IMG/VR virus record: IMGVR_UViG_3300017769_000053
Coordinates: 1-34,209 of that record
DNA length: 34,209 bases
Origin: a virus
Reading direction: 5' to 3' (one strand)
Shown one piece after another: positions 1,043 through 34,209 of the stretch; within the stretch, counting starts at the first letter, position 1; each line of letters begins with the position of its first letter. Position numbers and translations under genes: made by a program. Below the pieces are notes generated by a model. The model searched no databases, was not told the origin of the DNA, and saw only the letters and a list, made by a program, of their open reading frames with translations.

Positions 1043-1583
1043 ACTTAATAGATATTGAATTAGTTAATACTCTATACAATCTTTCACCGTTAACAATAAA
1101 TTCATATTCACTGCTCGGTGTAAATCCAACTAAATCTTCTTTATTTATATCTTTAAGCTCTTTATCAACATATTTGATAATACCCCTTAATGGAACTTCT
1201 TTTTCTAATAATATATTATTTGATTCAATTGGTTTAATAAAACAATAGCCCTTTGGCGAATACCACTTGTTATTTCTTTTATATAAAAATATTTGGTCTG
1301 ACTTAACAAAATATTTATTATCTTCCCAATAACTTCTGCTATTTTGTTCTACACCCCTAACATCATACCATCTTCTAAAAACATTATGATGTACAATAAC
1401 TTCATCACCTATTTTAATTTCGGTATTTTCTAGTTTAGGAGTTGATAAAACTACACCAACACGACTTACATATCGATGATCAGATATTTCTGAATTTAAT
1501 ATCAGCTCTTTATCATCGATTTGTTTTATATTGTCGTATCTTTTATTTTTTGGTTTGATTATAAAGTCAAAAACACTACGCAT
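996..1583 (-). CDS. Probable tandem Cpn10/GroES-like two-domain protein
   Basis: This 195-residue protein appears to hold two copies of a GroES-like barrel. Copy 1 (about residues 5-102) has the order FIIKPK, then a loop with ELILN, then SRVGVVLSTP, IKIGDEVIVHH and YFVKSDQIFLYK. Copy 2 (about 112-181) repeats it: GYCFIKPI, loop with NNILLEK, LRGIIKYVD, EDLVGFTPSSEYEF and GERLYRVLTNSISI. These follow GroES's VIVK, mobile loop, STRGEVLAVG, VKVGDIVIFND and EEVLIMSESDILAI. The reading is by eye. A separate, conventional GroES is encoded at 19306-19563. The gene is coupled to its neighbours by TAATG upstream and a 47-base overlap downstream, close to the terminase genes. It could instead be an unrelated SH3-like beta-barrel protein. 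Confidence 0.5.
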   Translation of the reverse strand: MRSVFDFIIKPKNKRYDNIKQIDDKELILNSEISDHRYVSRVGVVLSTPKLENTEIKIGDEVIVHHNVFRRWYDVRGVEQNSRSYWEDNKYFVKSDQIFLYKRNNKWYSPKGYCFIKPIESNNILLEKEVPLRGIIKYVDKELKDINKEDLVGFTPSSEYEFIVNGERLYRVLTNSISIKYERQGNEKEYNPSWT

Positions 1584-8600: not shown

Positions 8601-9111
8601 TATTACCTGTTGTGTTTATATTACCGTCTTGGTTTAATCTAAATATAACATTACTAGTATCAGTAACGCCATCACCAACTTCAAAATAACTTGTAGAGTT
8701 ATTGTCATTACTATCAATATTAAATCTTATGTGATTATATGAGTTTAATGTAATACTATCTGTAAAGTTATTGCCATATGTGGATCTTAATGAATGGGAG
8801 TCATTAGTACCATAGCTATCACTGTCCCAAGTTAAATATAAACCGCCAAATCTATATAGTCTAGAACTTTGACCATCTACAGCCCTACCATAAATATGGC
8901 CATTACCAAGTATGTCATTATTAAAAGTTGCTAGACTACTAAAAGTTGCTGCATTAGCAACTGTACCGCCGCTAAATGTTGCAGCATTAATCCAATTAGT
9001 ACCAGTACCTGTAGAACTTAATATTTGTCCGCTGGATCCCGCATCTCCACTTGTATCTAGTAATTTATCTTTTACTTGTAATTCAGTTGATAATTTTTTA
9101 ATTTGTGCCAT
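2608..9111 (-). CDS. Giant repetitive tail-fibre-type structural protein (2167 aa)
   Basis: A very long, Ser/Thr/Gly/Asn-rich, beta-rich protein built from degenerate repeats, most beginning with an ATF-x-G core (NATFAGDV, NATFSGDV, SATFKGS). At least 15 occur, and the underlying DNA word is conserved. The N-terminus (MAQIKKLSTELQVKDKLLDT...GQILSSTGTGTNW) looks like a fibre attachment segment. Around residues 768-833 lies a module ending AAFLWDEGDDAF that is shared with the next two fibre proteins upstream. The last ~150 residues (from about 2020, IPCLFNSNWYDG to the end) are non-repetitive and likely a beta-sandwich tip for receptor contact. No S74 peptidase chaperone is recognisable. It follows the 1639-aa fibre gene by three bases. 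Confidence 0.75.
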   Translation of the reverse strand: MAQIKKLSTELQVKDKLLDTSGDAGSSGQILSSTGTGTNWINAATFSGGTVANAATFSSLATFNNDILGNGHIYGRAVDGQSSRLYRFGGLYLTWDSDSYGTNDSHSLRSTYGNNFTDSITLNSYNHIRFNIDSNDNNSTSYFEVGDGVTDTSNVIFRLNQDGNINTTGNITFDSTTNHSLNSVVNLVLNADSDSNSSTAYRNIIFKSRGTETGRIDYEGNATFTGNVDYKPYHIPSTGGTAGWYKIGALSSFGQGGNVAVIEIEGHQGYNAANNQDYSIKLYFKTSNGNGGGPNNQNFNSWYERTGLNSSFIELVWKTSASNVYDLYMYIPTHSQYGYYTVRKSTGTWSHSGTSSSDPGANSSTILEATQLFNIDGPLTVESTATFAGNIQVGGFDDGSNYSATIGWNAVDSEAVGTKRSNLTFETGQTSVNQEDIYKWSIAMIAAPATVSGEEFGSDLAFLRSTRSNTYTDEPSLTLGRTGNATFAGNVTTSTGTLTINGGTENLLGSFVSTDSIAEIRIQDNSKYTRLLTVGTQFKIMPNNGSETLILDGNNDSATFKGSLTMPNYIIHDGDSDTQFGFSGANTFIVHTGGSDRFSITGDVGVVGATDFFIPQGRKLLLDGAGGHTYIEEESDSNLKFYVGGTEAMLVSNAGTHFTSTLTIPSYIYHASDPSTDTYFGFSGNDTFVVYTAAGKGIEIDSNRNVDFTGSVGVGVAGGSNAKLEVVSATGEVFRADAASGAFRIVADQTGVNTQGVLAHAGNATFSGDVTISGDLQVSGETTTTNVVNLDVSDNIIGLNRGSTSNANDSGLIIERGSTGNNAAFLWDEGDDAFVFGTTTANPAATGNITYAFAPIKAGSATFSGTVTADNIVKATNAGTENAMLQASATGTGYAGVYLDASNGDFSGNDYFSIVQKNDLSVEFDVRTNAGNTIFKSKGATNLTMDGANSTFSGDVSLGTGKSIYLSGTSGLRLLHDGSNAHIINGGTGDLNFKNDASDKDIYFTGTDGSTAVTALTLDMSEGGNATFAGTITTTSTATGAITLNGGTGVSTTGAFILRQNGDGSGNGMAITSSHATSHRIWKDADGVLNIGGSGNPNAFQQDITGNVTIEGDGTFSGDVGIGTMPSGGPQAALHVSGPFNTNAPTGNGVLMGLYNSTHGYIQLNGTSGGYIDFSVSGVDHKGRILYDNTSNYMRFDTNGSEKLRIASNGNATFTGAVTATAFGSTNIVTNKVVKFDGTYFNDSTITDTGSAITLGSATTISNKLFVDGGYGVQKGTYAERTFTSGYFANGTSNLGILLELQNVAIQGMLKITLSGSYSHQNITGELEVIIPFGFNPGSGNSSGIWGNGSNKAIRATGGIGDAFTVGDLAWSPSTQRHYIPIYKINSHGNSVKVRVQYFGGSAQEIENFNLTSPAAVTIPTEYQTKHKSITQGDLDLKGDLYIPGYINHTGDSGTAIGFDANDVIRLKTASSTALQIDSSQNVKVVAGKLQISGDNDHFVELVQSGDGDFTIDAPDDLRLDAGGGDVVLRAGGTEYARLTHNNTGLNVTTSESNSSIYLSPNGTGNVYASTDTFIITATEGEIAKLLLRTDEGDDNGDDWYIQNHTNNNLLFTNDRTGSQLANLTLTPQSPSSSAIATFAGDVVVGNRIQTAVGSSGAPTYTFTGKTDTGMYARDHSSNDRLAFSVDGSERGYFDSNGFQVVGNVYLNSGNSFRNYSGVWAATTGQTGNGFTFSNTADNSGAVLLSITSDSSSASASVATFSGKVSVGGGDISTAQMALKGQQSLLSFIRGTSGDAQFFMSSDSSKLYFTHTDIQSTNQILTLNSSDESATFAGDVLLGDGQKAKFGDNPDLQIYHNGSHSFIQDVGAGDLRLLASSIKLQNTSESNILTLASDLSATFAGSVTASGDIIASGQASPTISISSNTAGTGKTYSLISRFDGDFEIRNGNTNFLLIDGTANSATFAGVVIAPLGNKGAASYSFTGDTNTGMFSDSADTLKFAAGGNTMLHVNVNAGKVGVAGSLTVSSDIEDRDIPCLFNSNWYDGTSNAILLVPFNRHDNEATVSSKSYYHYLTMPAAGKVTKVVMRTVTGSASSGMTTQLFLYVNGSQVTSSSELTISGSTITWSPTSSNTFAEGDELSFGYQKNASGKTWDGVSMGIIVELTDYDI
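3228..8448 (-). repeat. Dispersed 14-bp DNA repeat encoding the ATF-x-G fibre motif
   Basis: On the plus strand the word CCTGCAAAAGTTGC, or one- to three-base variants of it, recurs at about 3228, 3410, 3611, 3834, 4190, 5465, 5759, 6023, 6251, 6518, 6809, 7427, 7646, 7946 and 8435. It recurs in the neighbouring fibre gene at about 13088, 13274 and 13583. On the coding strand it encodes (N/S)-ATF-(A/S/T/K)-G. Codon choice is conserved as well as protein sequence, so the copies may be recent duplications or recombination points. Confidence 0.8.
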
Positions 9112-9114
9112 ATC

Positions 9115-12100
9115 TTATGCGTAAGTTGAATTTATATTGTGGCCTTCTGCTTCTACTTTTACTCTTGGGGTATAATATTGGGTTGATGATGTTGCTCTAA
9201 ATGTAAATGTAATTGTGGAACCATCAGCTGAAGCAGCCACGTCTAAATCATTAGTACCTTCATCTATAACTTTTTTAGTCCTCCATGTTCCAGAATCATT
9301 GTAACAAGCGTACACCACTTTTTGATATTTACCAGCTCCTCCAAAGCATGTAAATGTAAACCCACATGAACTACCATTTCCATTTGCATCTGCTGTTATT
9401 CCTGCCACTGCATTCCCAGATGAGTTTAATGAACCATAATTTTTTGTGTATGTAACAAATCCACTACCTGAAATAGCGCCTGCAACACTTAATTTATATG
9501 TAGGGGAAGTAGTGCCGATGCCGACCTGAGGCGTATTAGATGATCCACCTATAACTGTTAATCCAACGTCACCAGCTGGTGCAATATTTATTCTGTTTAA
9601 ATCTGTTGGGCTAACATATCCCGTTGCTATTGTGAAGGTGTTTTGGGAAGATTGGTCAAAAGTTAATGTCGCATTTTGTGTACCACCACTATTTCCTTCA
9701 AATCTAATTGAAGGTGCGGCGCTCCCACTAGGGTTTTTCATTAAAAGTTCACCCCCCTCAATATGTAGTTTTGCACTTGGGCTAGTAGTTCCTATACCAA
9801 CGTTGTTAGTAGTGTGTGCTATTGTTAAAGCTGGTGTAGTTCCAGCTTGATTACCTATTTGGAAATAAGTTTGACTAGTGACACCATATATGTTTTTACC
9901 TATAAGCCAATCAGCACCCGAACTAGCACCTATATATATTGCGCTAGAAGTTGCACCTGAGGTTTGATTTGAAAATTGGGCTGTAATATTTTGTGACCCA
10001 TTAGCCGAGCCAGCATCAATTACAGTTAATTTTCTAGTAGGGGAAGTTGTTCCGATACCTACATCACCAGATGTATCTATTGTTAATTTATTACTTGTAG
10101 CTAAATTAGTAGAGTCTGATATTTTAAATTTATCAGAGTCATTATTATCAATTCCTAATCTCCATCTCCTTGTACCTGAAAGCAGGAAAGACAAAGCAGC
10201 ATCGCCTGTACCATCTTGTTCTATAGTAACTCCAGCTGTTGTATCGTCGGCTGAATCATTTTGATAAACATGCAGTTTTGCTACAGGGGCAATTCCAACA
10301 CCTACGTTACCGTTGTTTAAAATAGTTGCATGAGTAATAAACGACCCAGAACCATTTCTTGTTTCAAAATTAAATGCTTGCGCGGTTGCAGATGAAGAAT
10401 CAACTGTTCTTATTCTTTGCCAGTAACTACCATCATTACTACCAATTTGCCAAGAAGCTTGTAGTTCTAAATTACCATTAACGTGCAGTTTTGCGGTAGG
10501 ATTACTCGTTCCGATTCCGACATCCCCTGAAGAATTAATCCTCATTCTTTCTGTTCCACCTATATTTGTTGATAAGAAATTATCGGTATGACTAAATCTT
10601 ATTTGATTAGCATATTCAGTCGCGCTATCATCTACTACATCTGAAAATAAAATATAAGCATTACCTGTTGTTGATGTGAGTATATTTATACCTGAAGCTG
10701 TATCACCAGTATCTCCAATGTTTAACTTATTACCTGACCAGCCTTCTTCACCTGTATCATTAATAGTTACTACTCCTCCTGATTTAATACGCATTCTTTC
10801 AGCGGTAGATCCATGCTCTTTAATAACTAAATCACAATTTACACCGCTATTAACCGGATTAAATGCCCACCCTCTATTAGGATATGAAGCGTTTTTAATA
10901 CCTAAAAACAAATTTTCTGAACCACTATCTGAAAAACTAGATATATTTCCATAAATAGTTTGACTACCATTTGAACCAACAGTATAATCATCAACTTGAA
11001 ATTTACTGCCTGGATTATGCGCTCCTCCAACTCCAACATTCCCGTTGTCTAATAAATTCATAGAAGAATTTCCACCAGTAGTTATTTGTATACCGCCTAA
11101 TGTAGTATTCCTTTTTATAGAATTATAACCAATATTACTATCTACAAAATCTATTGCTTGGCCTGAATCCATTCTAAATCCATTTGCAGCATTTACGTAG
11201 CCCGTAAAAGATGTGTTTGATGAATCTATTTTTATTGATCCATTATTTTGTGATCTTATTTCAAATACATGACCGTTTGCAGAAGTTCTAAAAGTTGCAG
11301 CATTATTTCCATTGCTACATCTTAAATGTTGAATAATACTCTCAGAAGCGTCTAATGCTTCAAAAACTGATTGTCCGCTAACATGTATACCATAATTAAA
11401 ATCCCAAGTGTCATTGCCTTCATCCCAAAGTATACTTGGCTGTGTGCTTGGTCCAGATACTTTTAACCCAGAACCACCTGAGTTTGCTTCGGATTGCCCT
11501 ACACCAACAGTTATTGTTTTATCTGAAACATCTAAATCAGTAACACTAACTGTGTTTAAATCACCAGTAACTGTTATATTACCAGTTACAATTAAATTAT
11601 CAAATGTTACATCATCAGTTGTTCTAAGATTTTGATTCATTAAATGAACCTCTGTAGCACCTTGTCCTGTATTAATTTGTGTTGCTGTTACACTTCCCGC
11701 AAATTCTGCAGCACCACCATTAATAAATTTAATGTTTGCAGTACCACTGCCATCAATAAATTCTAATCTATCAATATTAGTATCTTTATTATATTGTACA
11801 GCGTAACCATTTGCATTACCACTATTTTTACTATAAAACTGAATTTTAGAATTACCAGTTGAACTATTAACTACACCTAATGTAATAGTGGGTGAATTAC
11901 CTTGATTTAGTTTTACATTTCTTATAGATAAATCTCCTGCGCCAGAAACATCGTTAGTTGCAGCCATATTACCTGTTACATTAACACCTGTGTTTGAAGT
12001 TCTAAATTTTACAGAATTATCATATCTTAATTCTACATATTGGTTTTCTACACATCTTACCGCCCAAGAACCAGTACCGTCTAAGAAACCAATTGCAGAG

Positions 12101-19309: not shown

Positions 19310-19563
19310 TCAACTAAAACTATATCGCCAAGCTTTAAAACATAATATAGCTGATCTTTCCATTCAATACCATGACCTGCTTGTTTGTCGTATCTAACTA
19401 TATCGTCTTTTTTTAGTACATCAGCCATTGGACCTGCTGATATTACTTTTCCTTTTAAATATCTTACATCTTTATTTTGATCCTCTGTAAGCTCTAAGCC
19501 ACCTACTTTCTTCGGTGCTTCCTTTATTTTTTCAACGACTACGTAATAATTAATTGCCTGCAT
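19306..19563 (-). CDS. groES: Co-chaperonin GroES (Cpn10)
   Basis: An 85-residue single-domain Cpn10: YYVVVEKIKE (first strand), KKVGGLELTED (mobile-loop region equivalent to GGIVL), LKGKVISAGP (STRGEVLAVG equivalent), LKKDDIVRYDK (VKVGDIV) and YYVLKLGDIVLV at the C-terminus. GroES caps the GroEL ring during ATP-driven folding. It is slightly shorter than cellular GroES (about 97 aa). It starts 14 bases inside the groEL 3' end, so the order is groEL-groES, the reverse of the usual bacterial operon. Confidence 0.9.
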   Translation of the reverse strand: MQAINYYVVVEKIKEAPKKVGGLELTEDQNKDVRYLKGKVISAGPMADVLKKDDIVRYDKQAGHGIEWKDQLYYVLKLGDIVLVE

Positions 19564-21112
19564 TTATTCTAATATTACTAATTACACAATCAGCAGAGAA
19601 TATAGTGTTGACAACACTTACTGCATTTTTAAGAGCCGTTTTAGTTACAAGCACAGGATCAATAATACCAGCATCTATCATATTAACAGGTTTGTTACAT
19701 ATAACGTTAAGACCTGTTCCTTTTTTACCTGTTTCCTTGTATTCTAAATTTGCATTATCTAAAATAGTTTTATAAGGTGACTTTATAGCTTCTAATAAAA
19801 TACGTTCGCCTTCATTTTCTGGCTTGATACTATAGTGTGCGTCTAATAAAGCAACTCCACCACCGGCAACAATACCCTCTTGTAGTGCTGCTTTTGTAGC
19901 ATATATTGCATCTTCAACCCTATCTTTCTTTTCTTTTAGTTCTATTTTTGAATTTGCCCCGACTTTAATCATTGCTACTTGTCCATTTAGCATAGCTAAA
20001 CGTTCTTGTAGCTTCTTCTTAAAGAACGGATTTTGTTCATCTTTAACTTTTTGTTCAACTAAATCAACACGCTCTTTTGTTACTTCACCTTGATTAGATA
20101 TTTGTAATACAGTGTGTGTTTCATCAGTTATAGCTTGTTTTGCTTCGCCTAGAACATCTGGTTGAATTAGATCTAAATCATCACCTAATTCTTCATTTAT
20201 GATTTTTGCTCCAGTTAATACCGCAAGATCTTCTACTGTATCTTGCTTAGTTGGACCGAATCCAGGCAGATCTACAACATTAACTTTTATATTGCCTTTA
20301 ACCTTGTTAGCTAATAAAGCTGCCATAGGTTGTTGTTCTACGCCTGCAACGATTAACAAACTCCTTTTCTTTTTAATAACAAACTCCAATACATTTTGTA
20401 TTTTACGGATATTTGGTATTGGCGATGTTACTATCAGTACGTACGGGTTATCTAGCACTGCCTTACCTTTATCCTTATCTGTCATAAAATGCGGCGATTT
20501 AAGTCCGCTACTAATTCTAGTGCCCTCTACGAATTTAACGTAGGTGTCATGGGTCTCAGACTCTTCCATAAGAACGACACCGTCCCCGCCTACTTTCGAA
20601 TATGCCTGCGATATTATATCGCCTAGAGCTTCATCATTATTGCAACTGATAGCACTTACGGATCTTAACATGTCCCCTTCGACCGGTAATGCTTCCTCCT
20701 GTAAGTACTCAGTCACTTTATCCAATCCTGATGATATACCTAATTTAATATCACGAATACCGTCAGAATCAATCTTAGCATACGCTAAATGCAACAATGT
20801 TTGCGCTAACACTGTCGCTGTTGTTGTGCCGTCACCAGCTTCTTTTACTGTATTTCTAGCTGCTTCCTTAATTAAAGTTGCGCCTATGTTTTCGACCGGA
20901 TCATATAAGACTACGCTTTCCGCAACGGTTACACCGTCTTTTGTAATGACCGGCCGGCCCATAGCGTCTTCATATATAACGCATTTACCGGAAGCACCAA
21001 GGGTCGACTTTACTGCATTTGCTAGTTTATCAACCCCGTGCATGATTTTTTCTCTTGCATCTGTCCCGAAAGACAGATTTTTTACTATCTCACTTGGGTT
21101 ATTATATTCCAT
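19550..21112 (-). CDS. groEL: Chaperonin GroEL
   Basis: A 520-residue GroEL with the expected blocks: PVITKDGVTVAE (about 54-65), the ATP-binding GDGTTTATVLAQ (about 93-104), apical SPHFMTD and LPGFGPTKQDTVEDLAVLTG, GQVAMIKVGA, RVEDAIYATKAALQEG (holding the ATP-hydrolysis Asp) and IVAGGGVALL. It lacks the C-terminal GGM repeats of bacterial GroEL. It folds proteins in a cytoplasmic double ring, here with the phage GroES next to it. Position in the late operon upstream of the giant fibre genes suggests phage structural clients. It follows a 95-aa gene after 27 bases. Confidence 0.95.
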   Translation of the reverse strand: MEYNNPSEIVKNLSFGTDAREKIMHGVDKLANAVKSTLGASGKCVIYEDAMGRPVITKDGVTVAESVVLYDPVENIGATLIKEAARNTVKEAGDGTTTATVLAQTLLHLAYAKIDSDGIRDIKLGISSGLDKVTEYLQEEALPVEGDMLRSVSAISCNNDEALGDIISQAYSKVGGDGVVLMEESETHDTYVKFVEGTRISSGLKSPHFMTDKDKGKAVLDNPYVLIVTSPIPNIRKIQNVLEFVIKKKRSLLIVAGVEQQPMAALLANKVKGNIKVNVVDLPGFGPTKQDTVEDLAVLTGAKIINEELGDDLDLIQPDVLGEAKQAITDETHTVLQISNQGEVTKERVDLVEQKVKDEQNPFFKKKLQERLAMLNGQVAMIKVGANSKIELKEKKDRVEDAIYATKAALQEGIVAGGGVALLDAHYSIKPENEGERILLEAIKSPYKTILDNANLEYKETGKKGTGLNVICNKPVNMIDAGIIDPVLVTKTALKNAVSVVNTIFSADCVISNIRINAGN

Positions 21113-22029: not shown

Positions 22030-22335
22030 ATGTCAAACACTAAATTAAATGAAGCAATCAGTAAATTAAGTAAGAAAGAATTAAAAGAAATCTTTCCACC
22101 GATAACACGTAAGAACTTCGTAGTAAGAAAGTCATGGTATGGTAGAGGTCAGATAATAACCTTTGTCAACAACAAAAAAGAAAAAGTAACTTACAACCAT
22201 GATGAAGTGCTTAAAGTAATGTTGCCTAAGCTAAGCATAATGCCATGCTGGTTGAAGCGAGGCTACTGGTCTCAGTCAACAGCAATGCCAAGCAACGTAA
22301 GAGATGTTGTACTCGAAAGAGTTGAGCTAGCGTAA
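22030..22335 (+). CDS. Hypothetical early protein (101 aa)
   Basis: Starts MSNTKLNEAISKLSKKELKE. An in-frame upstream extension to 21916 is rejected because it would run through promoter P1 and its conserved leader. The C-terminal half contains VTYNHDEVLKVMLPKLSIMP and CWLKRGYWSQSTAMP, conserved-looking but unrecognised. It is basic and soluble. It is the first gene of the right arm, flanked on both sides by copies of the control block. Confidence 0.65.
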   Translation: MSNTKLNEAISKLSKKELKEIFPPITRKNFVVRKSWYGRGQIITFVNNKKEKVTYNHDEVLKVMLPKLSIMPCWLKRGYWSQSTAMPSNVRDVVLERVELA

Positions 22336-22492
22336 GCAAAAGAGAAACAACAGAGGGAGAGTCATTAACATCGATTTCGAGACTCTTAAAAGAATGTGAA
22401 GAGCTAATAAGCAAACGATACAGTAAATCCCCAGCTATCTACACCCGAGCTTCGAGCCCCTACCAAAGGTCACTCAACAGCTGGGTGATGCT

Positions 22493-22522
22493 GTATAGCA
22501 ATGTATAGCATTGCGTATAGCA
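22493..22522. repeat. Three GTATAGCA iterons at about one-helical-turn spacing
   Basis: GTATAGCA occurs at 22493, 22503 and 22515 (steps of 10 and 12), with a further copy at 21941 beside promoter P1. Phased short direct repeats are typical of replication-initiator or regulator binding sites. Confidence 0.6.
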
Positions 22523-22619
22523 AAAATTGCGCCGGAAATTCACCGTATGCCGTATTGTCATATATACTTACTAACATGACAAGTTGTCTACTCGGTAAAT
22601 AGTGTGACAATTGCTTACT

Positions 22620-22649
22620 ATTATAACTAATATTACTAGCTAATGTCAC
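22620..22649 (-). promoter_or_regulatory. Minus-strand sigma-70-like promoter (GTGACA-18-TATAAT)
   Basis: Read on the minus strand: GTGACA at 22649-22644, an 18-base spacer and TATAAT at 22625-22620, a near-consensus housekeeping promoter. It shares TGACATTAGCTA and TATAATAGTAA with the element at 21756-21785. It would transcribe leftwards through the iterons and antisense to the 22030 gene. Confidence 0.5.
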
Positions 22650-22726
22650 TATTTTTACTTTATACAAAGAGAGACTTCAGATTATACCTACAATACTTTT
22701 TATACTATTAAACAATTGATATACTT

Positions 22727-22761
22727 TTGCAATTTAAATACGAAGTAATTTAGATAATATA
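22727..22761 (+). promoter_or_regulatory. Right-arm promoter P2
   Basis: TTGCAATTT at 22727, ATACGA ending at 22743 and GATAATATA at 22753 (offset 26), then TGTAACAAATAAAAATA at 22764-22780 and an ATG at 22787. Confidence 0.85.
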
Positions 22762-22786
22762 ACTGTAACAAATAAAAATAATAACT

Positions 22787-22999
22787 ATGTACTCAAAAAA
22801 AGTATCCAAAGAAGCTTTAGAATTATATAATTTATCTAAACTTCCACCAGCAAAACCTAGACCAAATCATAACTTTATAACATTAATGACTGAAATAGGT
22901 CACCAAATAGAGTGTCTAAATGAAGGAATTTCAGATAAAGACGAATTTATACAGGCAATTAATGAAATCCATGAATACCATAATACAACTATACTATGA
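22787..22999 (+). CDS. Small acidic helical protein, paralogue of the next gene (70 aa)
   Basis: The C-terminal half (LMTEIGHQIECLNEGISDKD, then EFIQAINEIHEYH) matches the pattern of the next gene (LLEELAFQMKMFENDMIDEQ, then DFMTALQEIHEHY). The pair is coupled by ATGA. Function unknown. It is expressed directly from promoter P2 with the conserved A-rich leader. Confidence 0.7.
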   Translation: MYSKKVSKEALELYNLSKLPPAKPRPNHNFITLMTEIGHQIECLNEGISDKDEFIQAINEIHEYHNTTIL

Positions 23000-23190
23000 A
23001 AAAATTACTAGAAGAACTGGCATTTCAAATGAAAATGTTTGAAAATGACATGATTGACGAACAAGATTTTATGACGGCATTACAGGAAATTCACGAACAC
23101 TATCACTATAGTTACTTTGAATATGACGGTAAGCCACCAAGATACACTAAAACATATAACGAAGCACTGAAGTGGTTCAAGAAAAGCTAG
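22996..23190 (+). CDS. Small helical protein, paralogue of the previous gene (64 aa)
   Basis: Shares a two-helix unit ending with (N/Q)EIHE(Y/H) with the previous product; after it comes a short aromatic tail (YFEYDGKPPRYTKTYNEAL). The four-base ATGA overlap indicates translational coupling. Probably a tandem duplication followed by divergence. Function unknown. Confidence 0.7.
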   Translation: MKKLLEELAFQMKMFENDMIDEQDFMTALQEIHEHYHYSYFEYDGKPPRYTKTYNEALKWFKKS

Positions 23191-23196
23191 AAAATT

Positions 23197-23370
23197 ATGA
23201 AAGTAACTAATATGAAAGAACTACTGAAATATGTAGAAAGTAAGAAAATAGAGAGAAAACACAAACACCGAGAAATATTAAAAGTTTATGGTGAGTGTAG
23301 TGGAATGGGAAATAGAAGATACAAAGTACCACAAAAACAAGTATTTAGTAAAAAATATTATGCAGTTTAA
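23197..23370 (+). CDS. 57-aa basic small protein
   Basis: An open frame beginning MKVTNMKELLKYVESKK and ending KVPQKQVFSKKYYAV. It has an AAAATT leader directly before the ATG and starts six bases after the upstream stop. Its last codons (TAT GCA GTT TAA) form the left box of promoter P3. It is lysine-rich and soluble, with no family recognised. Confidence 0.6.
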   Translation: MKVTNMKELLKYVESKKIERKHKHREILKVYGECSGMGNRRYKVPQKQVFSKKYYAV

Positions 23371-23394
23371 ACACGACCCACTCCAGATAATAAA
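23360..23394 (+). promoter_or_regulatory. Right-arm promoter P3
   Basis: ATGCAGTTT at 23360, ACACGA ending at 23376 and GATAATAAA at 23386 (offset 26), then TGTAACAAATAAAAA at 23397 and an ATG at 23420. The box overlaps the end and stop of the 57-aa gene. Confidence 0.85.
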
Positions 23395-23419
23395 TATGTA
23401 ACAAATAAAAAATATAATT

Positions 23420-23635
23420 ATGACTAAAATTAAATTCTTAAAAGACAACATTATTAAATTCAATAACACTTATTATAAAGGTTATACAGTTGGCAATTTA
23501 CCAAACTCATTTGGCTTCAAAGCTAAATACCTTGGCCAAGATGAAGATGACATACCACAATACAAATTTGGTAAATCACACTGGCTTAAATTCAAAGGTT
23601 TAACTTATATTGAAAAAACTATATTACCATGGTAA
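23420..23635 (+). CDS. Hypothetical small protein (71 aa)
   Basis: Beta-rich, Lys/Phe/Tyr-rich protein (FNNTYYKGYTVGNLPNSFG, then YKFGKSHWLKFKGLTY). No recognised family. It is expressed from P3 and overlaps the next gene by seven bases. Confidence 0.6.
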   Translation: MTKIKFLKDNIIKFNNTYYKGYTVGNLPNSFGFKAKYLGQDEDDIPQYKFGKSHWLKFKGLTYIEKTILPW

Positions 23636-23835
23636 CATTCAAAGATTTTGACCCAGTAAAAATAGCTAATAAATTAAAGCAAGTTGAAGAGTTTGAAGTA
23701 AAGTATGGCTCTAATGACTTATCAAAAGCATGGAGAAAATGGTGTACTGATTATGAGTACAGGAAAAAAGAGTGGGAGTGGAGACAAGCTCTTGCTAACG
23801 CAAATCAAGAAATATACGTAAAAAAAATATACTAA
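23629..23835 (+). CDS. Hypothetical small helical protein (68 aa)
   Basis: A charged helical protein with a Trp-rich segment (AWRKWCTDYEYRKKEWEWRQ). The ATG lies within the end of the previous gene and its stop overlaps the next ATG (TAATG), giving a tight three-gene unit. Function unknown. Confidence 0.6.
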   Translation: MVTFKDFDPVKIANKLKQVEEFEVKYGSNDLSKAWRKWCTDYEYRKKEWEWRQALANANQEIYVKKIY

Positions 23836-24032
23836 TGAGAAAATTTAATAGGTACAAAGAAAATTTAAGACGAGTAGGTAATGACATATGGTCTTACTCA
23901 ACTCACGTCGCAACGATAGAATATCCGGGAATGTTAGTACAACACGGATGGTGGAGTGTAACAACCCAAAAACATATTAACTATGTTGCGAGAGAATTAG
24001 GTTTAACAATTAAAAAAGACTACAATGAATAG
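23835..24032 (+). CDS. Small phage protein with WSYSTHVA...GWWSVTT pattern (65 aa)
   Basis: The sequence NDIWSYSTHVATIEYPGML, then QHGWWSVTTQKHINYVARE, follows a pattern I recognise from small phage proteins (possibly DUF8033-like) found in many unrelated phages. It has two short strands and a C-terminal helix. Function unknown. It ends with GAATAG, inside which the next small gene's ATG begins. Confidence 0.6.
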   Translation: MRKFNRYKENLRRVGNDIWSYSTHVATIEYPGMLVQHGWWSVTTQKHINYVARELGLTIKKDYNE

Positions 24033-24153
24033 AAAATTCCAACATTACGCTATTAAAATAGCATTAACAGGATTAACAGGATTAGCTTTGATTGGTTGGG
24101 TAAGTGTAGTAATACATTTACTAAATGGAGCAACACCTCATTATGGATTCTAG
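24025..24153 (+). CDS. Putative 42-aa single-pass membrane protein
   Basis: A short frame: MNRKFQHYAIKIALTG then a hydrophobic stretch of about 20 residues (LTGLALIGWVSVVIHLL) and a short tail ending HYGF. The basic N-terminus before the helix favours a cytoplasmic N-terminus. It overlaps the upstream stop by eight bases, the same architecture as other real gene pairs here. It could be an inner-membrane early protein; short length keeps confidence modest. Confidence 0.5.
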   Translation: MNRKFQHYAIKIALTGLTGLALIGWVSVVIHLLNGATPHYGF

Positions 24154-24174
24154 GTGCTATACACAAATGATAGT

Positions 24175-24209
24175 TTGCAGATTCAACACGACCATTTGTA
24201 GATAATATA
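24175..24209 (+). promoter_or_regulatory. Right-arm promoter P4
   Basis: TTGCAGATT at 24175, ACACGA ending at 24191 and GATAATATA at 24201 (offset 26), then TGTAACAAATAAAAATA at 24212-24228 and an ATG at 24234. Confidence 0.85.
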
Positions 24210-24233
24210 TATGTAACAAATAAAAATACGATT

Positions 24234-24467
24234 ATGAAAAATTTATATGAACAACTTAAACCAGAAGTAAAACTGGAACTAAAAAAACAACTAAGAAAAT
24301 ATCCTACATCAACTAGAGTTATTATTGCTGAACTACACAGGTGGACAAATTATAGTGACTTAACTATGAGAACTATAAAAGACCTATGTATCTATGCAAG
24401 TTTAAATGAGCATTCATGGGATGTATACGACTGGAAATACGGAGAAAAATTATTTAACAATGAGTAA
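24234..24467 (+). CDS. Hypothetical small helical protein (77 aa)
   Basis: Predicted helical, with TSTRVIIAELHRWTNYSDL in the middle and aromatic acidic C-terminus (HSWDVYDWKYGEKLF). No family recognised; the central region could be an HTH-like turn but is not convincing. It is driven by P4 and overlaps the next gene by eight bases. Confidence 0.6.
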   Translation: MKNLYEQLKPEVKLELKKQLRKYPTSTRVIIAELHRWTNYSDLTMRTIKDLCIYASLNEHSWDVYDWKYGEKLFNNE

Positions 24468-24678
24468 AATGAAAGAAATAGATAGAGTAGCAGAATACTT
24501 ACACGAAGTAATGCTAGAACAATTAGATGACTCAATTGACTGGGCTATTGATGGTATACCTGAAATGGAAAATTTAGAAGGTGACGAATACAATGCAATG
24601 AAGAATATGATAATGACAAGAACAATTGAGTATATGTTGAATTGGCTAGAAGCCAACGGAACTAGAGAAACAAATTAG
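24460..24678 (+). CDS. Hypothetical small acidic helical protein (72 aa)
   Basis: Starts MSKMKEIDRVAEYLHEVM. This ATG overlaps the upstream stop (AATGAGTAA); a longer reading from 24406 is rejected because it lies deep inside the upstream gene. The acidic helix continues to IEYMLNWLEANG. Function unknown. It is the last protein gene before the RNA region. Confidence 0.6.
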   Translation: MSKMKEIDRVAEYLHEVMLEQLDDSIDWAIDGIPEMENLEGDEYNAMKNMIMTRTIEYMLNWLEANGTRETN

Positions 24679-24912
24679 TGTTTGTTACACAGAGACGAGT
24701 AGCTTAATTAGGGGAAACCACATAAGTGAATGGCTCGTTTTAAGACCAGTAAGTTTAGCAGCGTGGTTCAAACGCGGTCGCGGTAAAATTCCGCAGGGTC
24801 TAAAAATATTATGGGTTAAAACACGAAGGACGGTAGCGGAAGCGCATATATTACAAGCGACTCGAGTTACCCCAGAAAGCGTGGGCATTGTGCACGATGC
24901 AACCCTCGAAAT
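24679..24912 (+). ncRNA. Candidate structured non-coding RNA upstream of the initiator tRNA
   Basis: This 234-base stretch is about 47% G+C (counted over 24721-24900), far above its AT-rich flanks, and has no plausible plus-strand gene. Complementary segments suggest a branched fold: AGACGAG near 24692 with CTCGTTT near 24735, AGACC near 24742 with GGTCT near 24797, GCGT/ACGC around GGTTCAA, GCGG/CCGC around TAAAATT, and GCATTG/CGATGC near 24886. I could not match it to tmRNA, RNase P, 4.5S RNA, group I intron core or a full tRNA. Strand is assumed from the downstream tRNA. Confidence 0.4.
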
Positions 24913-24987
24913 AGCGGGATGGAGCAGTTTGGTCAGCTCGTCGGGCTCATAACCCGAAGGTCGCAGGTTCGAATCCTGTTCCCGCAA
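24913..24987 (+). tRNA. Initiator tRNA-fMet (anticodon CAT)
   Basis: A complete cloverleaf: acceptor GCGGGA/TCCCGC, D-stem GAGC/GCTC, anticodon stem-loop TCGGG-CTCATAA-CCCGA, and T-arm GCAGG-TTCGAAT-CCTGT. Initiator hallmarks are all present: the 1-72 position is unpaired (A opposite A), three consecutive G-C pairs close the anticodon loop, and A11 pairs with T24. The discriminator is A and CCA is not encoded (CTA follows), so CCA must be added. It delivers formyl-Met at start codons, so this is not an elongator tRNA-Met. Confidence 0.92.
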
Positions 24988-25008
24988 CTAACTGAAAACC
25001 AATTAATT

Positions 25009-25467
25009 ATGGAAATTTTAACAGATGAAATAATCATCGAACATTTAGAAAAAGATGGCTTTATGGAAGAGCCTGATGGTCCTTGGATACTAGAATATAT
25101 TCAATCAGAATATGGTTGTAAATTAGATAATACAAGTGATTATATAGACGACAATTATACATTAAAAATATACAGTGAAATGACCTCTGATGGTTATGAT
25201 GTATTTTGGTGTACTCAAGAATCAAGACCGTATGTATCACAAGACGGTTATTATTATGAAGATTATTCTGACTGGTCAGATAAAGCAGTAGATGAATTAA
25301 CTCATGGTAGTGATGTGTGGGTAGAACCTAATATATGGGATGATATGGAGTATGATTTTAACCACAGATTAGAAGAGTGGTGGCAAGATGTATATGAAGA
25401 ATTAATGGACGAAAGAAGAGAAGAATTATTAGATTCAGGTAAATATAAATTAGAAGAAGATGAATAG
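25009..25467 (+). CDS. Hypothetical acidic protein (152 aa)
   Basis: The start at 25009 (MEILTDEIIIEHLEKDGFM) is used; an in-frame extension would begin inside the tRNA. The protein is strongly acidic and Trp/Tyr-rich (DGYYYEDYSDWSDKAVDE, then EWWQDVYEELMDE), which could mimic DNA charge as in anti-restriction or host-enzyme inhibitors; that is inference from composition only. The leader is AATTAATT before ATG. It overlaps the next gene by eight bases. Confidence 0.6.
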   Translation: MEILTDEIIIEHLEKDGFMEEPDGPWILEYIQSEYGCKLDNTSDYIDDNYTLKIYSEMTSDGYDVFWCTQESRPYVSQDGYYYEDYSDWSDKAVDELTHGSDVWVEPNIWDDMEYDFNHRLEEWWQDVYEELMDERREELLDSGKYKLEEDE

Positions 25468-27389: not shown

Positions 27390-28028
27390 ATGTCACATGA
27401 AAGAAATATGAAGTGGCTGAATGATAGGAAAGTAAATTACAGAAGAAATCCTATTACAGATGTTCCTACCGAAAGTACTGATCTATATGATTACTACGCA
27501 GGGGGTACATATGAATGCTATAGTTTATTTAGAAGTAAAGCTAAAATTACCACATACAAATCATTGAAGTGGCACTTCTTAGTTTTATATTATTTAAACT
27601 ATGACGGTATTGAAGGTGACGAATTGTCACTTGAAGACGACATGACGTCGGTATTTAAATTTATAGCAAATAAAGACAATGGCTTTGTTACATTTTTTAT
27701 TAAACAAAAATTACTTAATAATATGATTGATGAAGTTTTAGGTGTTGGAGATACTCCTCCACGTAATCGTATTCGTAAAGTAATATTTAAAGATTATACT
27801 GGTTTATCATTAAGTGAAAAACTAAGTATAGTTGGAAAACTAATTGGTAGAAGTAAAAAAGTATGTGAAGATGACATATACCAATGCATGATAGATTTAA
27901 ATGATAATAAAGAAAAAATAACTATAGCTAAATTAGCTAAGTCATTAAAGTGTACTACCCGTACTATATACAGAAACATGGGTAATCAATTAAAACAAGA
28001 AAAAGAAATACTAAATAAAGAATTATGA
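27390..28028 (+). CDS. HTH DNA-binding protein coupled to the sigma factor (212 aa)
   Basis: The C-terminal ~40 residues (KITIAKLAKSLKCTTRTIYR, then NMGNQLKQ) are a helix-turn-helix of the AraC/sigma-4-like 'KLAKSLGVSRRTIYR' type. The N-terminal 170 residues are helical and unrecognised, with TTYKSLKWHFLVLYYLNY. It overlaps the sigma-factor gene by ATGA, so the pair are made together, consistent with a regulator acting with that sigma factor or with a replication role. Confidence 0.65.
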   Translation: MSHERNMKWLNDRKVNYRRNPITDVPTESTDLYDYYAGGTYECYSLFRSKAKITTYKSLKWHFLVLYYLNYDGIEGDELSLEDDMTSVFKFIANKDNGFVTFFIKQKLLNNMIDEVLGVGDTPPRNRIRKVIFKDYTGLSLSEKLSIVGKLIGRSKKVCEDDIYQCMIDLNDNKEKITIAKLAKSLKCTTRTIYRNMGNQLKQEKEILNKEL

Positions 28029-28789
28029 GAAAATATAACATAGCTAATTATGTTAGATATAAAGAAGAATTAAAATCTTCAATAGAACGTGTTAAAAAAC
28101 CAGTAGACGGAGATTATACAAAGTTAACAGATGAAGAAATAGTAATTAATTTCCTTCCGCTAGTTGAAACATTAGCTAGGAAACAATCAACCTCTGATCA
28201 AGCTTCTGGTGTATTAAGTATAAACGATTTATTACAAGAAGGTGCATATGGATTGATTGCCGCTTCTAGTAAAATAGATAGAGAAACATTAAAGAAGTCT
28301 GACGACCAAGAAAAAACAATTAAGTCGTTTCTATCTAAAAGAATTAAGGGCGCGATACGGAGAGCCGTAGATATTAATAGAGGCGGAGTACGTATCCCTG
28401 AACATAAACTAAATGAAATAAGACGCAACCCTAATGACGAAAAGATGGTTGCTATGTTTTTTAATAGTGTATTTTCAAGTATTGATGATAAACCTAATGA
28501 TGATGAGAATATGGCATATCAAGTTATTGATAAATCAGAACCATATAATATACATTTACTCAATGCTTATTTATTACAACTAATGAAAAAACATTTAGAT
28601 TTTAAACAGTATGAGGTACTAAGATTAAGTTATGGCCTTGACTGTGACAAACACTCTGCAAATGAAATCGCAGGTAAATTAGATATTAATGTTAGTACTG
28701 CTCATGTACGTATTTCACAGATAAAACGGGATGCTATACAATGTTTAATTACTAATGTTGATTCTTCGCAAGTGCTTGATTACCTATAA
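28025..28789 (+). CDS. Phage-encoded sigma-70 family RNA polymerase sigma factor
   Basis: A 254-residue factor. Region 2 spans about residues 41-117: FLPLVETLARK, LSINDLLQEGAYGLIAASSK, and FLSKRIKGAIRRAVD. A short region-3-like segment (GGVRIPEHKLNEIRR, 120-134) follows. Region 4 is at about 190-242: YEVLRLSYGLDCDKHSANEI, then AGKLDINVSTAHVRISQIKR, an HTH for -35 contact. Sigma factors redirect host RNA polymerase. It is the best candidate to read the repeated WTGCAR/GATAATATA promoters around it, though these also precede genes upstream of it. Confidence 0.88.
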   Translation: MRKYNIANYVRYKEELKSSIERVKKPVDGDYTKLTDEEIVINFLPLVETLARKQSTSDQASGVLSINDLLQEGAYGLIAASSKIDRETLKKSDDQEKTIKSFLSKRIKGAIRRAVDINRGGVRIPEHKLNEIRRNPNDEKMVAMFFNSVFSSIDDKPNDDENMAYQVIDKSEPYNIHLLNAYLLQLMKKHLDFKQYEVLRLSYGLDCDKHSANEIAGKLDINVSTAHVRISQIKRDAIQCLITNVDSSQVLDYL

Positions 28790-30654: not shown

Positions 30655-32376
30655 ATGCAAGTAAACAACGCGGAGATTAATGGATTCTTAATCGACCAGT
30701 TTAACCAGCATGATTTGAAGGTTGGTGCAACGCAGGGGATTTGTCCCCTGTGTTCACATAACCGTAAGCCTGAAAACAGGAAACAAAAATGTGCTAGTTA
30801 TGATTGGGAGCGTGGTCTTGGTACTTGCCACAACTGTAACTCAACATTTCAATTACATACTTATCAACGTAAAGGCGGCGGGGATAAAGAATATATTAAA
30901 CCAGATTATTCTACAAAAACGCATAAGCCAGTTAGTAGTAAAGTAATTGAATGGTTTGAACAGCGAGGCATATCAAAAAATACATTAGAAGAAATAAATG
31001 TATCTGAAGGCCCGGAATTCATGCCACAAACAGGCAAGGTTGAAAATACGATTAAGTTCAACTACATGATAGGTGATGAGCTTATCAATATAAAATATAG
31101 AGACGGACGTAAGCATTTTAAATTATATAAAGGTGCTGAGAAAGTCTTTTATAATATTAATAGCATAGTGGGTTATGACACTTGTGTTATTGTTGAAGGT
31201 GAGATGGATGTATTATCTTATCATGAAGCGGGAATAAATAATGTAATATCTGTACCAAACGGAGCTACATTAAATCATAACAACTTAGATTATCTAGATA
31301 ATTGTATTGATTACTTTGAGGATAAAGAAAAGATAATCTTAGCAGTAGATGCTGATGAAGCTGGTATAGCATTGCAGACAGAATTAATTAGAAGGCTAGG
31401 AGCGGAGGTTTGTTTCTTAGTTAACTTTATTGATTGTAAAGATGCTAATGAATATTTATTAAAATATGGTAAAGAGGATTTAGCAAAAACAATTGTGGAA
31501 TGTAGACCAGTTCCATTAGAAAATGTAACAACTTTTAAAGATATAGAACATGAAGTTACTGACTTTGTACAAAACGGTTTTAAGAAAGGGTACCAAATTG
31601 GTATTAAAAACTTCGACGAAATATTCAGCACTTATACTGGACAGTTTATTACTGTTACTGGTATCCCTAGTAGTGGGAAGTCTGATTTTGTCGATCAAAT
31701 GGTTGTAGGGTATAATAATAACTACGGCTGGAAAACAGCATTTGCATCACCAGAAAATGCACCTACATATTTACATGCGCATAAATTGATGCGTAAAGTC
31801 TGGCAAGATATGCCGCGAAAATCTGATATTGGCACAGCTAAATGGAAACAAGTAGCAGAACACGTTAACGATAACTTTTTCTTCATCGATATGGAGCGTT
31901 ATACTCTTGAAACAGTATTACGTAAAGGAGCAGAATTAGTTAAACGTAAGGGTATTAAATGCCTTGTTATAGACCCATTTAATAAGATTAGAGACGTAGA
32001 TTGCAAGACTGAAGATGTAAATAGATATACAATGGAATACTTAAGCAAAATTGAAATGTTTGCTAAAAAGTATGATGTATTGGTTTTCATAGTAGCACAT
32101 CCAACTAAAATGTATAAAACAAGTGATGGTAAAATTGAAGAGCCAACAATGTACAACATTAAAGGTGGTGGCGAATGGTATGATGCAAGTTATCACGGTT
32201 TATTAGTTCATAGGGATTATGAAGCTAAAACCGTTAAAGCTAAAGTTTTAAAAGTTAAGTTTCAAAATCTTGGTGAGAATGGTGCTGAGGCACACTTTAC
32301 GTGGGAGCCACGTTCAGGTTGCTTTATACCACACGAACCATTACAATTAGAAGCGGAACCAATGCCTTGGGAATAA
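30655..32376 (+). CDS. Bifunctional DNA primase-helicase (T7 gp4/Twinkle type)
   Basis: A 573-residue replisome protein. A zinc-binding domain has Cys30, Cys33, Cys58 and Cys61 (ICPLC ... TCHNC). TOPRIM motifs are CVIVEGEMDVLSYHEAG (Glu181) and ILAVDADEAG (Asp232, Asp234). The RecA-like helicase has Walker A GIPSSGKS (336-343), Walker B CLVIDPFNK (436-444) and VLVFIVAHPTKM with a following GGGEWYDAS segment. It primes and unwinds DNA at the fork. Length is close to T7 gp4 (566 aa). No DNA polymerase is seen in the window, so that gene lies elsewhere. Confidence 0.93.
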   Translation: MQVNNAEINGFLIDQFNQHDLKVGATQGICPLCSHNRKPENRKQKCASYDWERGLGTCHNCNSTFQLHTYQRKGGGDKEYIKPDYSTKTHKPVSSKVIEWFEQRGISKNTLEEINVSEGPEFMPQTGKVENTIKFNYMIGDELINIKYRDGRKHFKLYKGAEKVFYNINSIVGYDTCVIVEGEMDVLSYHEAGINNVISVPNGATLNHNNLDYLDNCIDYFEDKEKIILAVDADEAGIALQTELIRRLGAEVCFLVNFIDCKDANEYLLKYGKEDLAKTIVECRPVPLENVTTFKDIEHEVTDFVQNGFKKGYQIGIKNFDEIFSTYTGQFITVTGIPSSGKSDFVDQMVVGYNNNYGWKTAFASPENAPTYLHAHKLMRKVWQDMPRKSDIGTAKWKQVAEHVNDNFFFIDMERYTLETVLRKGAELVKRKGIKCLVIDPFNKIRDVDCKTEDVNRYTMEYLSKIEMFAKKYDVLVFIVAHPTKMYKTSDGKIEEPTMYNIKGGGEWYDASYHGLLVHRDYEAKTVKAKVLKVKFQNLGENGAEAHFTWEPRSGCFIPHEPLQLEAEPMPWE

Positions 32377-32661
32377 ATGAAAAGTATATACGGTAAAAGA
32401 AAAAATTATAGAATGCCACAATATCTTCCAAGTGAAGAAGAACGGAAGGCATATAATTATTGTGTTAGAAATAACATAAGAATATCACCAGTAGGAATGA
32501 AAGAAGATGCTCAAGCTTGGAAAATAGAAATTAGAATGGGACCATATAAAAGAGGCGAAAGAGGAAATATATCGCCGTCTATTTATGACAAACACACAAT
32601 ATGGTCTGAATATTATAGAATGTGTAAATATTATTATGACAAATATAGAAAATCAATATAG
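32377..32661 (+). CDS. Hypothetical basic protein between helicase and TS-like gene (94 aa)
   Basis: Very basic, Tyr/Arg-rich protein (MKSIYGKRKNYRMPQYL at the start; IEIRMGPYKRGERGNISPSI in the middle; YYRMCKYYYDKYRKSI at the end). Begins immediately after the helicase stop codon (TAAATG) and overlaps the TS-like gene by 26 bases. Function unknown. Charge and position suggest nucleic-acid binding. Confidence 0.6.
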   Translation: MKSIYGKRKNYRMPQYLPSEEERKAYNYCVRNNIRISPVGMKEDAQAWKIEIRMGPYKRGERGNISPSIYDKHTIWSEYYRMCKYYYDKYRKSI

Positions 32662-33478
32662 AGCTTTAATGGCAAGTTTATTACATGCCCCTACAAAAGA
32701 AGACAGAACCGAGGTTGGTACTAAATCTTTATTTGGTAGACAATTAGAACACGATATGTCTGTAGGCTTTCCTTTATTAGTTGGGAAGAAGATATATTTT
32801 AATCATGCTATTACTGAATTATTATGGATATTACAGGGTAGAACCGACCTAGGTTATCTACATGATAATGGTGTACATTATTGGGATGATGATTATGCAA
32901 GGTCTGGCCGTAAAGATGGAAAGCTTGGACCAGTTTATGGTGCACAATGGCGTGACTTTAATGGATATGATCAGCTGATGAACTTAATATATAATATTAG
33001 TGTTAATCCATCATCAAGAAGACATATTATAAATGCTTGGAGAGCAGACAAATTAAAGAATATGGTATTACCACCATGTCATTATGGTTTACAAGTTAAT
33101 ATAAATAATGGTAAAATGGATTTAATATGGATTCAACGTTCTGCAGATGTATTTTTAGGTTTACCATATGACATTGCAATGTATGGTATATTACTTGAAT
33201 TGCTTTGTCATAATACGGAATATAAACCAGGAAAACTTATTGCACAATTAGGTGATTGTCATTTATATCTTAATCATATTGAAGCCGCAGAAGAATATGT
33301 ATATAGAGATGTAAGTAATATTGAATTACCTAAATTAAAAATAACTGGTGACGGCATTATATATAAGGGTGGACACAGAAGTAATCCTGGATTAAAGATA
33401 CCAAATAAAAAACAATTTAAAATACTTAATTATAATCCTTTGCCTCCAATAAAGGCAAAACTAAACGTTGGAAAATAA
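32636..33478 (+). CDS. Thymidylate-synthase-fold enzyme, predicted dCMP (hydroxy)methyltransferase-like
   Basis: The 280-residue protein has all core TS motifs: LEHDMSVGFPLL, LWILQGRTDL, SRRHIINAWRADKL, LPPCHYGLQ (nucleophile Cys148), QRSADVFLGLPYDIAMYG and LGDCHLYLNH. The residue that is Asn in thymidylate synthases (E. coli Asn177, in PFNIASY) is Asp179 here. In the TS family that Asn-to-Asp change marks dCMP specificity, as in T4 dCMP hydroxymethylase (Cys148/Asp179). So dCMP rather than dUMP is the predicted substrate, with product 5-hydroxymethyl- or 5-methyl-dCMP. The start at 32636 is preferred over 32585 because it matches the TS N-terminus; the longer form lies in the previous gene. 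Confidence 0.85.
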   Translation: MTNIENQYRALMASLLHAPTKEDRTEVGTKSLFGRQLEHDMSVGFPLLVGKKIYFNHAITELLWILQGRTDLGYLHDNGVHYWDDDYARSGRKDGKLGPVYGAQWRDFNGYDQLMNLIYNISVNPSSRRHIINAWRADKLKNMVLPPCHYGLQVNINNGKMDLIWIQRSADVFLGLPYDIAMYGILLELLCHNTEYKPGKLIAQLGDCHLYLNHIEAAEEYVYRDVSNIELPKLKITGDGIIYKGGHRSNPGLKIPNKKQFKILNYNPLPPIKAKLNVGK

Positions 33479-33852
33479 TGTATTATATTTATCACATACC
33501 TGGTAAAAAAATTGGCGTAACACGTAATCTTAATAATAGAGTTACGCTAGCGCAGGGCTACAAGCCTGGAGAGTACGAAGTTCTTGATCAGTCAGACGAT
33601 ATAGATTATATATCGGATAAAGAGATAGAACTTCAACAGTCTTATGGATATAAGATTGATAATAAACTTTATAAAAATTTATTTAAAATGAAAATAAACG
33701 TAACCGAACAAACCACAACATTCCCAGTACCTGTTAATAAACTTAAAGGTAGATTAATGGATAGCTTGGGAATGACTTGGGAAACTGAGTTTGGCAAAAT
33801 TGTACTAGATGAAGAAATATCTAGATGGATTGAAGACAATGCTCATATCTAA
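33478..33852 (+). CDS. Divergent GIY-YIG-like protein (124 aa)
   Basis: The first ~65 residues (MYYIYHIPGKKIGVTRNLNN, RV..AQGYKPGEYEVL, then a helix DKEIELQQSYGYK) fit a shortened GIY-YIG nuclease fold: YIY for GIY and KIG for YIG, with Arg in TRNLNNR. The C-terminal part (TTTFPVPVNKLKGRLMDS, then WIEDNAHI) is separate. It may be a nuclease or a degenerate binding domain. Its ATG is coupled to the TS-like gene by TAATG. The open frame of the next gene continues in the same frame after its TAA. Confidence 0.55.
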   Translation: MYYIYHIPGKKIGVTRNLNNRVTLAQGYKPGEYEVLDQSDDIDYISDKEIELQQSYGYKIDNKLYKNLFKMKINVTEQTTTFPVPVNKLKGRLMDSLGMTWETEFGKIVLDEEISRWIEDNAHI

Positions 33853-34209
33853 AGATTTAATAGCGAAAGAAGCTATGTATATAATAAAGCTTTATGGGAA
33901 GCATTTAGCAATTTTAATAGCTTAGAAGTTTTACAAGACTATATTGATTCTAAACAAAGTATATTTGATTCAATCAGAAATTGGGCCAAAGTAAGAGGTA
34001 TATATGAAAATGGCGATGCCAGAACTCAATATATTAAATTACAAGAAGAAGCTGGTGAATTGGCTAAAGCAATGTTAAAAGATGATCAAGCAGAGTTTGT
34101 TGATGCAATAGGCGATATGGTTGTTGTATTAACTAATTTAGCTGAGCAGAAAAACGTTAGAATTGAAACGTGTATAGCATCAGCATATAATCAAATACAA
34201 GATAGAACA
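33853..34209 (+). CDS. MazG-like NTP pyrophosphohydrolase (partial; start unclear)
   Basis: An open frame of 119 codons runs to the right edge. Residues NWAKVRGIYENGDARTQYIK, then LQEEAGELAKAML (EExxE motif) and AEFVDAIGDMVVVLTNLAE (ExxD motif), identify the all-alpha MazG family, which hydrolyses (d)NTPs to monophosphates. No in-frame ATG occurs before AKAMLKD, inside the core. The frame is continuous with the upstream GIY-YIG-like gene past its TAA (33850-33852). An ATG at 33839 in another frame reads only 28 codons (MLISKDLIAKEAMYIIK...). A non-ATG start, an indel, or a recoding event is needed. The C-terminus is missing. Confidence 0.7.

Follow-up and report, generated by a model that had tools for sequence, protein, structure and literature searches.

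A thymidylate synthase (TS)-family gene in a probably marine phage (positions 32636 to 33478, plus strand; 280 amino acids and a TAA stop; PF00303) belongs to a clade in which the residue that reads the pyrimidine base is aspartate. The best-supported mechanism for this locus, which we consider probable, is a retargeted TS that acts as a dCMP methylase, is coupled to an adjoining MazG-family enzyme and would give DNA containing 5-methylcytosine.

The window, the whole stretch of DNA analysed here, is a linear virus record of 34,209 bases with a G+C content of 34%, and is probably a fragment of a larger genome. Pfam and PHROGs searches recognise tailed-phage genes for terminase, GroEL, GroES, Erf recombinase, exonuclease and primase-helicase. 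By its primase-helicase the phage comes nearest, among isolates, to Cellulophaga phage phi10:1 (44%), which makes a host from the marine Bacteroidota likely. The DNA primase-helicase gene (Toprim plus DnaB-like; 30655 to 32376, plus strand; Pfam and PHROGs) lies upstream of the TS gene in the same operon, and a primase-helicase is present at 45 of the 49 loci of the window’s clade (clade 1) among the Asp-type matches listed. The gap between helicase and TS holds a 94-residue ORF to which no function is assigned (32377 to 32661, plus strand), with similar ORFs there in the relatives G004 and G008. In long relatives, the operon runs in the order primase-helicase, TS, MazG, small ORF, DUF1064 nuclease-like gene, small ORF, NrdB, small ORF and NrdA. 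Elsewhere in the window are a phage GroEL gene (19550 to 21112, minus strand; phrog_5725, E 8e-136), a gene for a GroES-like protein about 18 kb from it (996 to 1583, minus strand; phrog_13932), a gene for a sigma-factor-like protein (28025 to 28789, plus strand; phrog_351, with Sigma70_r4 slightly below the Pfam cut-off) and a tRNA-Met (CAT; 24913 to 24988, plus strand) that overlaps the start of an ORF at 24919 to 25467.

The TS reading frame opens at 32585, and the homology of the relatives, which start MTNIE or MINIE, begins at the ATG at 32636; the coding part without the stop is 32636 to 33475. The initial annotation had recognised a TS homologue here, and the encoded protein scores 254.8 bits against PF00303 (cut-off 24.3), reaches E 2e-89 against phrog_160 and lies above the TIGR03284 cut-off. 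The PF00303 score, the catalytic Cys, the phosphate-binding Arg residues, Tyr94, Glu58 and the modelled fold place it in the TS superfamily. In the numbering of E. coli TS (EcTS), all the TS residues checked are kept (R21, K48, E58, W80, Y94, R126, R127, L143, P145, C146, H147, Q165, R166, S167, D169, L172, G173, H207 and Y209), and the protein retains the C-terminal folate-closing TS tail, IKAKLNV, followed by GK. The pairing with the active site of T4 gp42 that had been noted from the letters alone holds in the alignment: the nucleophile Cys148 (33077 to 33079, plus strand) aligns with EcTS C146 and T4 gp42 C148, and Asp179 (33170 to 33172, plus strand) with EcTS N177 and T4 gp42 D179. Asp179 is predicted to recognise cytosine and to protonate N3, a role taken from that of the T4 residue (PMC6400193). 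An AlphaFold2 model built on a deep alignment (pLDDT 96) has the TS fold and matches solved TS structures, including that of L. casei N229D TS with dCMP (1njc). The model confirms the predicted fold, and bears on fold, not substrate.

The mark of a dUMP-specific thymidylate synthase, Asn at EcTS position 177, is absent, with Asp179 in the window and Asp in 53 of 53 clade rows. This swap is a known determinant of dCMP preference (PMC8670742, PMC6400193, PMC5175136): E. coli and L. casei TS with the engineered change methylate dCMP, and contigs with modified cytosine are enriched for Asp177 TS genes (PMC8670742). Because the Asp stands at the position that discriminates uracil from cytosine, dCMP rather than dUMP is well supported as the predicted substrate, as had been proposed from the swap and in keeping with its conservation in the clade. 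MetaGPA ranks positions 147 and 177 as the two most discriminating (PMC8670742), and His147, which the window clade retains, counts against our reading; in most of the remaining Asp-type enzymes examined, this residue is Tyr, Phe, Pro or Thr.

As to the product, a published signature (PMC6400193) tells hydroxymethylases from TS at two sites: the residue three positions ahead of the catalytic Cys (Cys-3) is Asp or Glu, and the one two positions ahead of the catalytic Tyr (Tyr-2) is Ser or Thr. In the alignment, T4 gp42 fits at both sites, with Asp and Ser, and the Asp of SPO1 gp29 agrees with the first half of the rule. The window protein carries Leu145, the TS-type residue, at Cys-3 (33068 to 33070, plus strand) and Pro99 at the second site, and the signature occurs in 0 of 53 clade-1 rows (all Leu at the first site; Pro or Lys at the second). 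Since the signature is absent and the TS hydride-transfer machinery is kept, 5-methyl-dCMP is a likelier product than its hydroxymethyl counterpart. Asp177 together with TS hydride-transfer residues is the residue pattern of a dCMP methylase, a rule that rests on engineered enzymes because AXL1, the natural comparator discussed below, is itself divergent.

The initial annotation had instead proposed hypermodification by analogy with T4 dCMP hydroxymethylase, and this analogy is probably wrong. An enzyme of the gp42 type, making 5-hydroxymethyl-dCMP that is possibly decorated further, is unlikely here, even though Cys148 and Asp179 match gp42 and the MazG partner resembles the logic of gp56 and gp42. 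Against it stand the clade-wide residues at Cys-3 and Tyr-2, the inactivity of the T4 D145N mutant (PMC6400193), and the C-terminal tail and H147 of the window protein, in which it differs from gp42; as a class assignment, the T4-type hydroxymethylase was rejected on the signature, and while Asp177 is present, so is the TS tail that this class lacks. One long relative, G004, carries between NrdA and the lysis genes (oriented positions 22218 to 24779; loci L037 to L039) a JmjC gene, a cupin-like gene and two glycosyltransferase-like genes that would suit further decoration; the JmjC gene is confirmed by Pfam, and the others were assigned by reading, the glycosyltransferase-like pair without Pfam or PHROGs confirmation. 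G002, G005, G007 and G008, the four long relatives compared with it, lack the set. Among the 69 proteins of G002, no base-modifying transferase appears in the best 25 of 28 Pfam families or the best 25 of 77 PHROGs families. The suggested search for a dNMP kinase and a glycosyltransferase found no T4-type dNMP kinase in 19 long relatives and no obvious base glycosyltransferase set.

A scan of IMG/VR recovered 21 viral relatives at 76-98% identity, in all of which the Asp, LGLPYD, PPCH and the C-terminal LNVGK are kept. For tree building, motif scans supplied about 110 sequences each of Asp-type TS (the matches listed) and Asn-type TS. The window protein falls in a clade of at least 53 members, all Asp-type, extending down to about 52% identity (FastTree support 0.997; SH-aLRT 97-98). 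Conservation in 21 of 21 close relatives and 53 of 53 clade members means that the Asp is not a chance event, and it appears to be derived from ordinary ThyA, because the sister group consists of three Asn-type genes (L303, L226 and L276). In a second Asp clade, of at least 50 members, residue 147 is Tyr or Phe. The trees suggest two independent Asn-to-Asp origins, but a topology with one Asp clade is not rejected by an AU test from which the trait columns were left out (p 0.485). Tyr178 of the window (33167 to 33169, plus strand), at the position of EcTS F176, is shared widely: Tyr is found there in 103 of 108 Asp-type rows among the matches listed versus 2 of 106 Asn-type rows, so that Phe176Tyr accompanies N177D as a companion change.

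The best homologues of the window protein in the phage collection, at 40-43% identity, are TS of T4-like, Geobacillus, Arthrobacter and Bacteroides phages, and the best match of the relative L116 reaches 47%; since these values lie below the internal identity of the clade, no cultured phage seems, as judged by identity, to be a member. A plasmid search gave no close relative. AP013540 (L307), an uncultured fosmid phage, is similar to the second Asp clade. The same clade-1 TS occurs on two contigs (L063 and L064) of a single Rickettsiales MAG, MED657, both probably phage sequence binned into that genome. Five Asp177 enzymes that keep Phe176 (L171, L160, L143, L176 and L070) stand as single rows amid Asn-type TS in the tree; by reading, two of them adjoin DHFR-like genes and one a dCMP deaminase-like gene. 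Three further Asp177 homologues (L150, L130 and L068) have Asp at Cys-3 and Thr at 147, residues that suggest true hydroxymethylases.

The MazG-family gene (33478 to 34209, plus strand) comprises an N-terminal domain and an all-alpha NTP-pyrophosphatase domain, is truncated by the contig end, and overlaps the TS stop by 1 nt (TAATG). A MazG-type enzyme had been placed about 0.4 kb downstream of the TS gene, a distance that fits the Pfam-detectable part (33877 to 34209; PF01503, 30.7 bits; PF03819, 24.1 bits) but not the gene itself, which starts at the TS stop. The profile match and the EExxE...ExxD motif (EEAGE, read directly as the metal-binding motif at 34045 to 34059, plus strand; EFVD) identify an all-alpha NTP pyrophosphatase. 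An in-frame TAA at 33850 to 33852 splits the N-terminal from the pyrophosphatase domain. A frameshift was considered and rejected, as the DNA alignment shows TAA against TCA in the nearest relative, L002 (TS 98% identical), and MazG in relatives is one ORF of 257-269 residues. The TAA is possibly a nonsense variant or a sequencing error; if it is real, the individual window phage may lack its partner enzyme.

The proposal that a MazG-type pyrophosphatase is the partner gains strength from its distribution. Scored with an HMM of the window’s own MazG family, and with the Asp-type loci taken from the matches listed, MazG adjoins TS at 49 of 49 clade-1 and 48 of 50 clade-2 loci (97 of 99 Asp-type loci pooled) versus 0 of 108 Asn-type loci, nearly always directly downstream and on the same strand. 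With 600 bp or more required on each flank, again for the matches listed, the counts are 43 of 43 and 41 of 41 versus 0 of 87 (84 of 84 Asp-type loci; Fisher p 6e-51, a value that ignores relatedness). A motif-only scan for pyrophosphatases near TS found 24 of 43 and 32 of 41 Asp-type loci and 5 of 87 Asn-type loci; it is insensitive, and the HMM result is therefore relied on. At about 12 clade-2 loci the MazG ORF has only some 100-125 codons, mostly the pyrophosphatase domain, which therefore seems to be the linked part. The linkage in both clades may reflect one ancestral cassette, given that the AU test does not reject one Asp origin.

Pyrophosphatases outside this HMM family adjoin other Asp-type enzymes (AXL1 gp64, AP013540 and L150). 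The L150 TS is flanked by a MazG-like pyrophosphatase and a dCMP deaminase-like gene. In AP013540, an uncultured Votkovvirus, positions 7173 to 9194 encode an NTP pyrophosphatase, a P-loop kinase annotated as dTMP kinase, an Asp177 TS and a dCMP deaminase, a gene set in which the predicted pathway is more complete. In modified contigs, PF01503 and TS are also found together (PMC8670742), and a cyanophage MazG favours dGTP and dCTP (PMC6850273). The window-family MazG, whose specificity is not readable from sequence, is most likely a putative dCTP hydrolase that converts dCTP to dCMP.

Scans of 19 long clade-1 records (47-68 kb, all possibly incomplete) found exactly one PF00303 gene per record and no ThyX or second TS, dCMP deaminase, T4-type dNMP kinase, thymidylate kinase, 5-methyl-dCMP kinase, DHFR or family A polymerase; a single AAA_18 match, below cut-off, lies inside an open frame of 2849 residues. 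With no phage kinase found, phosphorylation of 5-methyl-dCMP would rest on the host, and this host-dependent phosphorylation and incorporation is the weakest link of the model.

That step leaves room for a rival that we consider doubtful, in which MazG hydrolyses dCTP to dCMP, the TS homologue methylates it, and host dCMP deaminase converts the 5-methyl-dCMP to dTMP, so that the genome stays unmodified and dCTP is traded for dTTP. Such a route would suit the AT-rich genome, the MazG partner, the ribonucleotide reductase genes of the operon, the lack of a dedicated kinase and the dCMP deaminase of some other Asp-type operons; against it, no deaminase gene was found in the 19 long relatives, and Asp-type TS has been linked to contigs with modified cytosine (PMC8670742). 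Equally doubtful is an ordinary dUMP thymidylate synthase that tolerates the Asp, or a dual-substrate enzyme, supplying dTMP to an AT-rich phage (window G+C as above), for although the protein is TS-like except at position 177 and a few neighbours, and the single PF00303 gene and lack of ThyX in each relative leave no separate phage supply of dTMP, every clade member has the Asp, which goes together with F176Y and MazG, and the N-to-D change is known to set dCMP preference (PMC8670742, PMC6400193, PMC5175136).

In the dCMP methylase reading that we favour, N177D, with F176Y, would retarget thymidylate synthase from dUMP to dCMP, and the enzyme would convert dCMP and methylene-tetrahydrofolate to 5-methyl-dCMP by the ordinary TS route: Cys148 would attack C6, the one-carbon unit would pass to C5, and hydride transfer would release dihydrofolate. 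The adjoining MazG would hydrolyse dCTP to dCMP, both feeding the enzyme and depleting the normal competitor. The 5-methyl-dCMP would then be phosphorylated to the triphosphate by host kinases and built into DNA by a host polymerase, no phage family A polymerase having been found. Phage Xp12 has 5-methylcytosine DNA, and by analogy the DNA of the window phage may withstand many restriction enzymes.

Several known systems share parts of this arrangement. The engineered dCMP methylases (E. coli TS N177D; L. casei TS N229D, PDB 1njc) likewise have a TS scaffold in which the base-reading Asn is changed to Asp, with the His and TS folate residues kept; the window version differs in being natural, conserved and MazG-coupled, and adds F176Y, I79Y and a Gly-Lys extension after the C-terminal Val. 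The Xp12-type comparison was made with its kin, Stenotrophomonas phage AXL1, whose gp63 shares Asp177, Tyr176, an adjoining PF01503 pyrophosphatase and a ribonucleotide reductase in the genome, but is only about 27% identical, has Pro at 147 and Asn at Cys-3, and lacks a TS-like tail; the AXL1 genome further carries genes for DHFR and dCMP deaminase, neither of which was found in the window clade. These residue differences indicate that natural dCMP methylases need not resemble the window enzyme. T4 gp42 shares Cys148 and Asp179 at about 22% identity, whereas its Asp145, Ser94, Thr after the Cys and missing tail correspond to Leu, Pro, His and a tail in the window. The MetaGPA Asp177 TS of modified contigs also co-occurs with PF01503, but there position 147 is discriminating too, and the window clade keeps His147 (PMC8670742). 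In the Z-cluster of S-2L (PurZ, MazZ and DatZ), where MazZ feeds PurZ (PMC8342488), a MazG-like enzyme beside a base-synthesising enzyme similarly supplies the monophosphate, although the pathway is that of purines (dGTP to dGMP) and the synthase is unrelated.

The class is known in outline from Xp12 and MetaGPA, and the MazG linkage of the clade is new evidence. Few natural dCMP methylases are known to us, Xp12 being the example, and the clade would offer many natural versions of an enzyme best known hitherto from protein engineering. Tentatively, and with somewhat less confidence than we place in the mechanism itself, we propose a large uncultured, marine-looking clade in which paired N177D and F176Y changes turned ThyA into a dCMP methylase locked to a MazG dCTP hydrolase, and in which most cytosine would become 5-methylcytosine through the nucleotide pool, with reliance on the host in place of a phage kinase or DNA polymerase, or, in its most unusual form, the methylate-first route to dTTP would operate. 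Two sequence determinants are open to test: Leu or Asp at Cys-3, which should tell methylases apart from hydroxymethylases, and the accompanying F176Y. Asp177 with an adjoining MazG could then serve as a genetic rule for spotting, in metagenomes, phages with probable 5-methylcytosine DNA.
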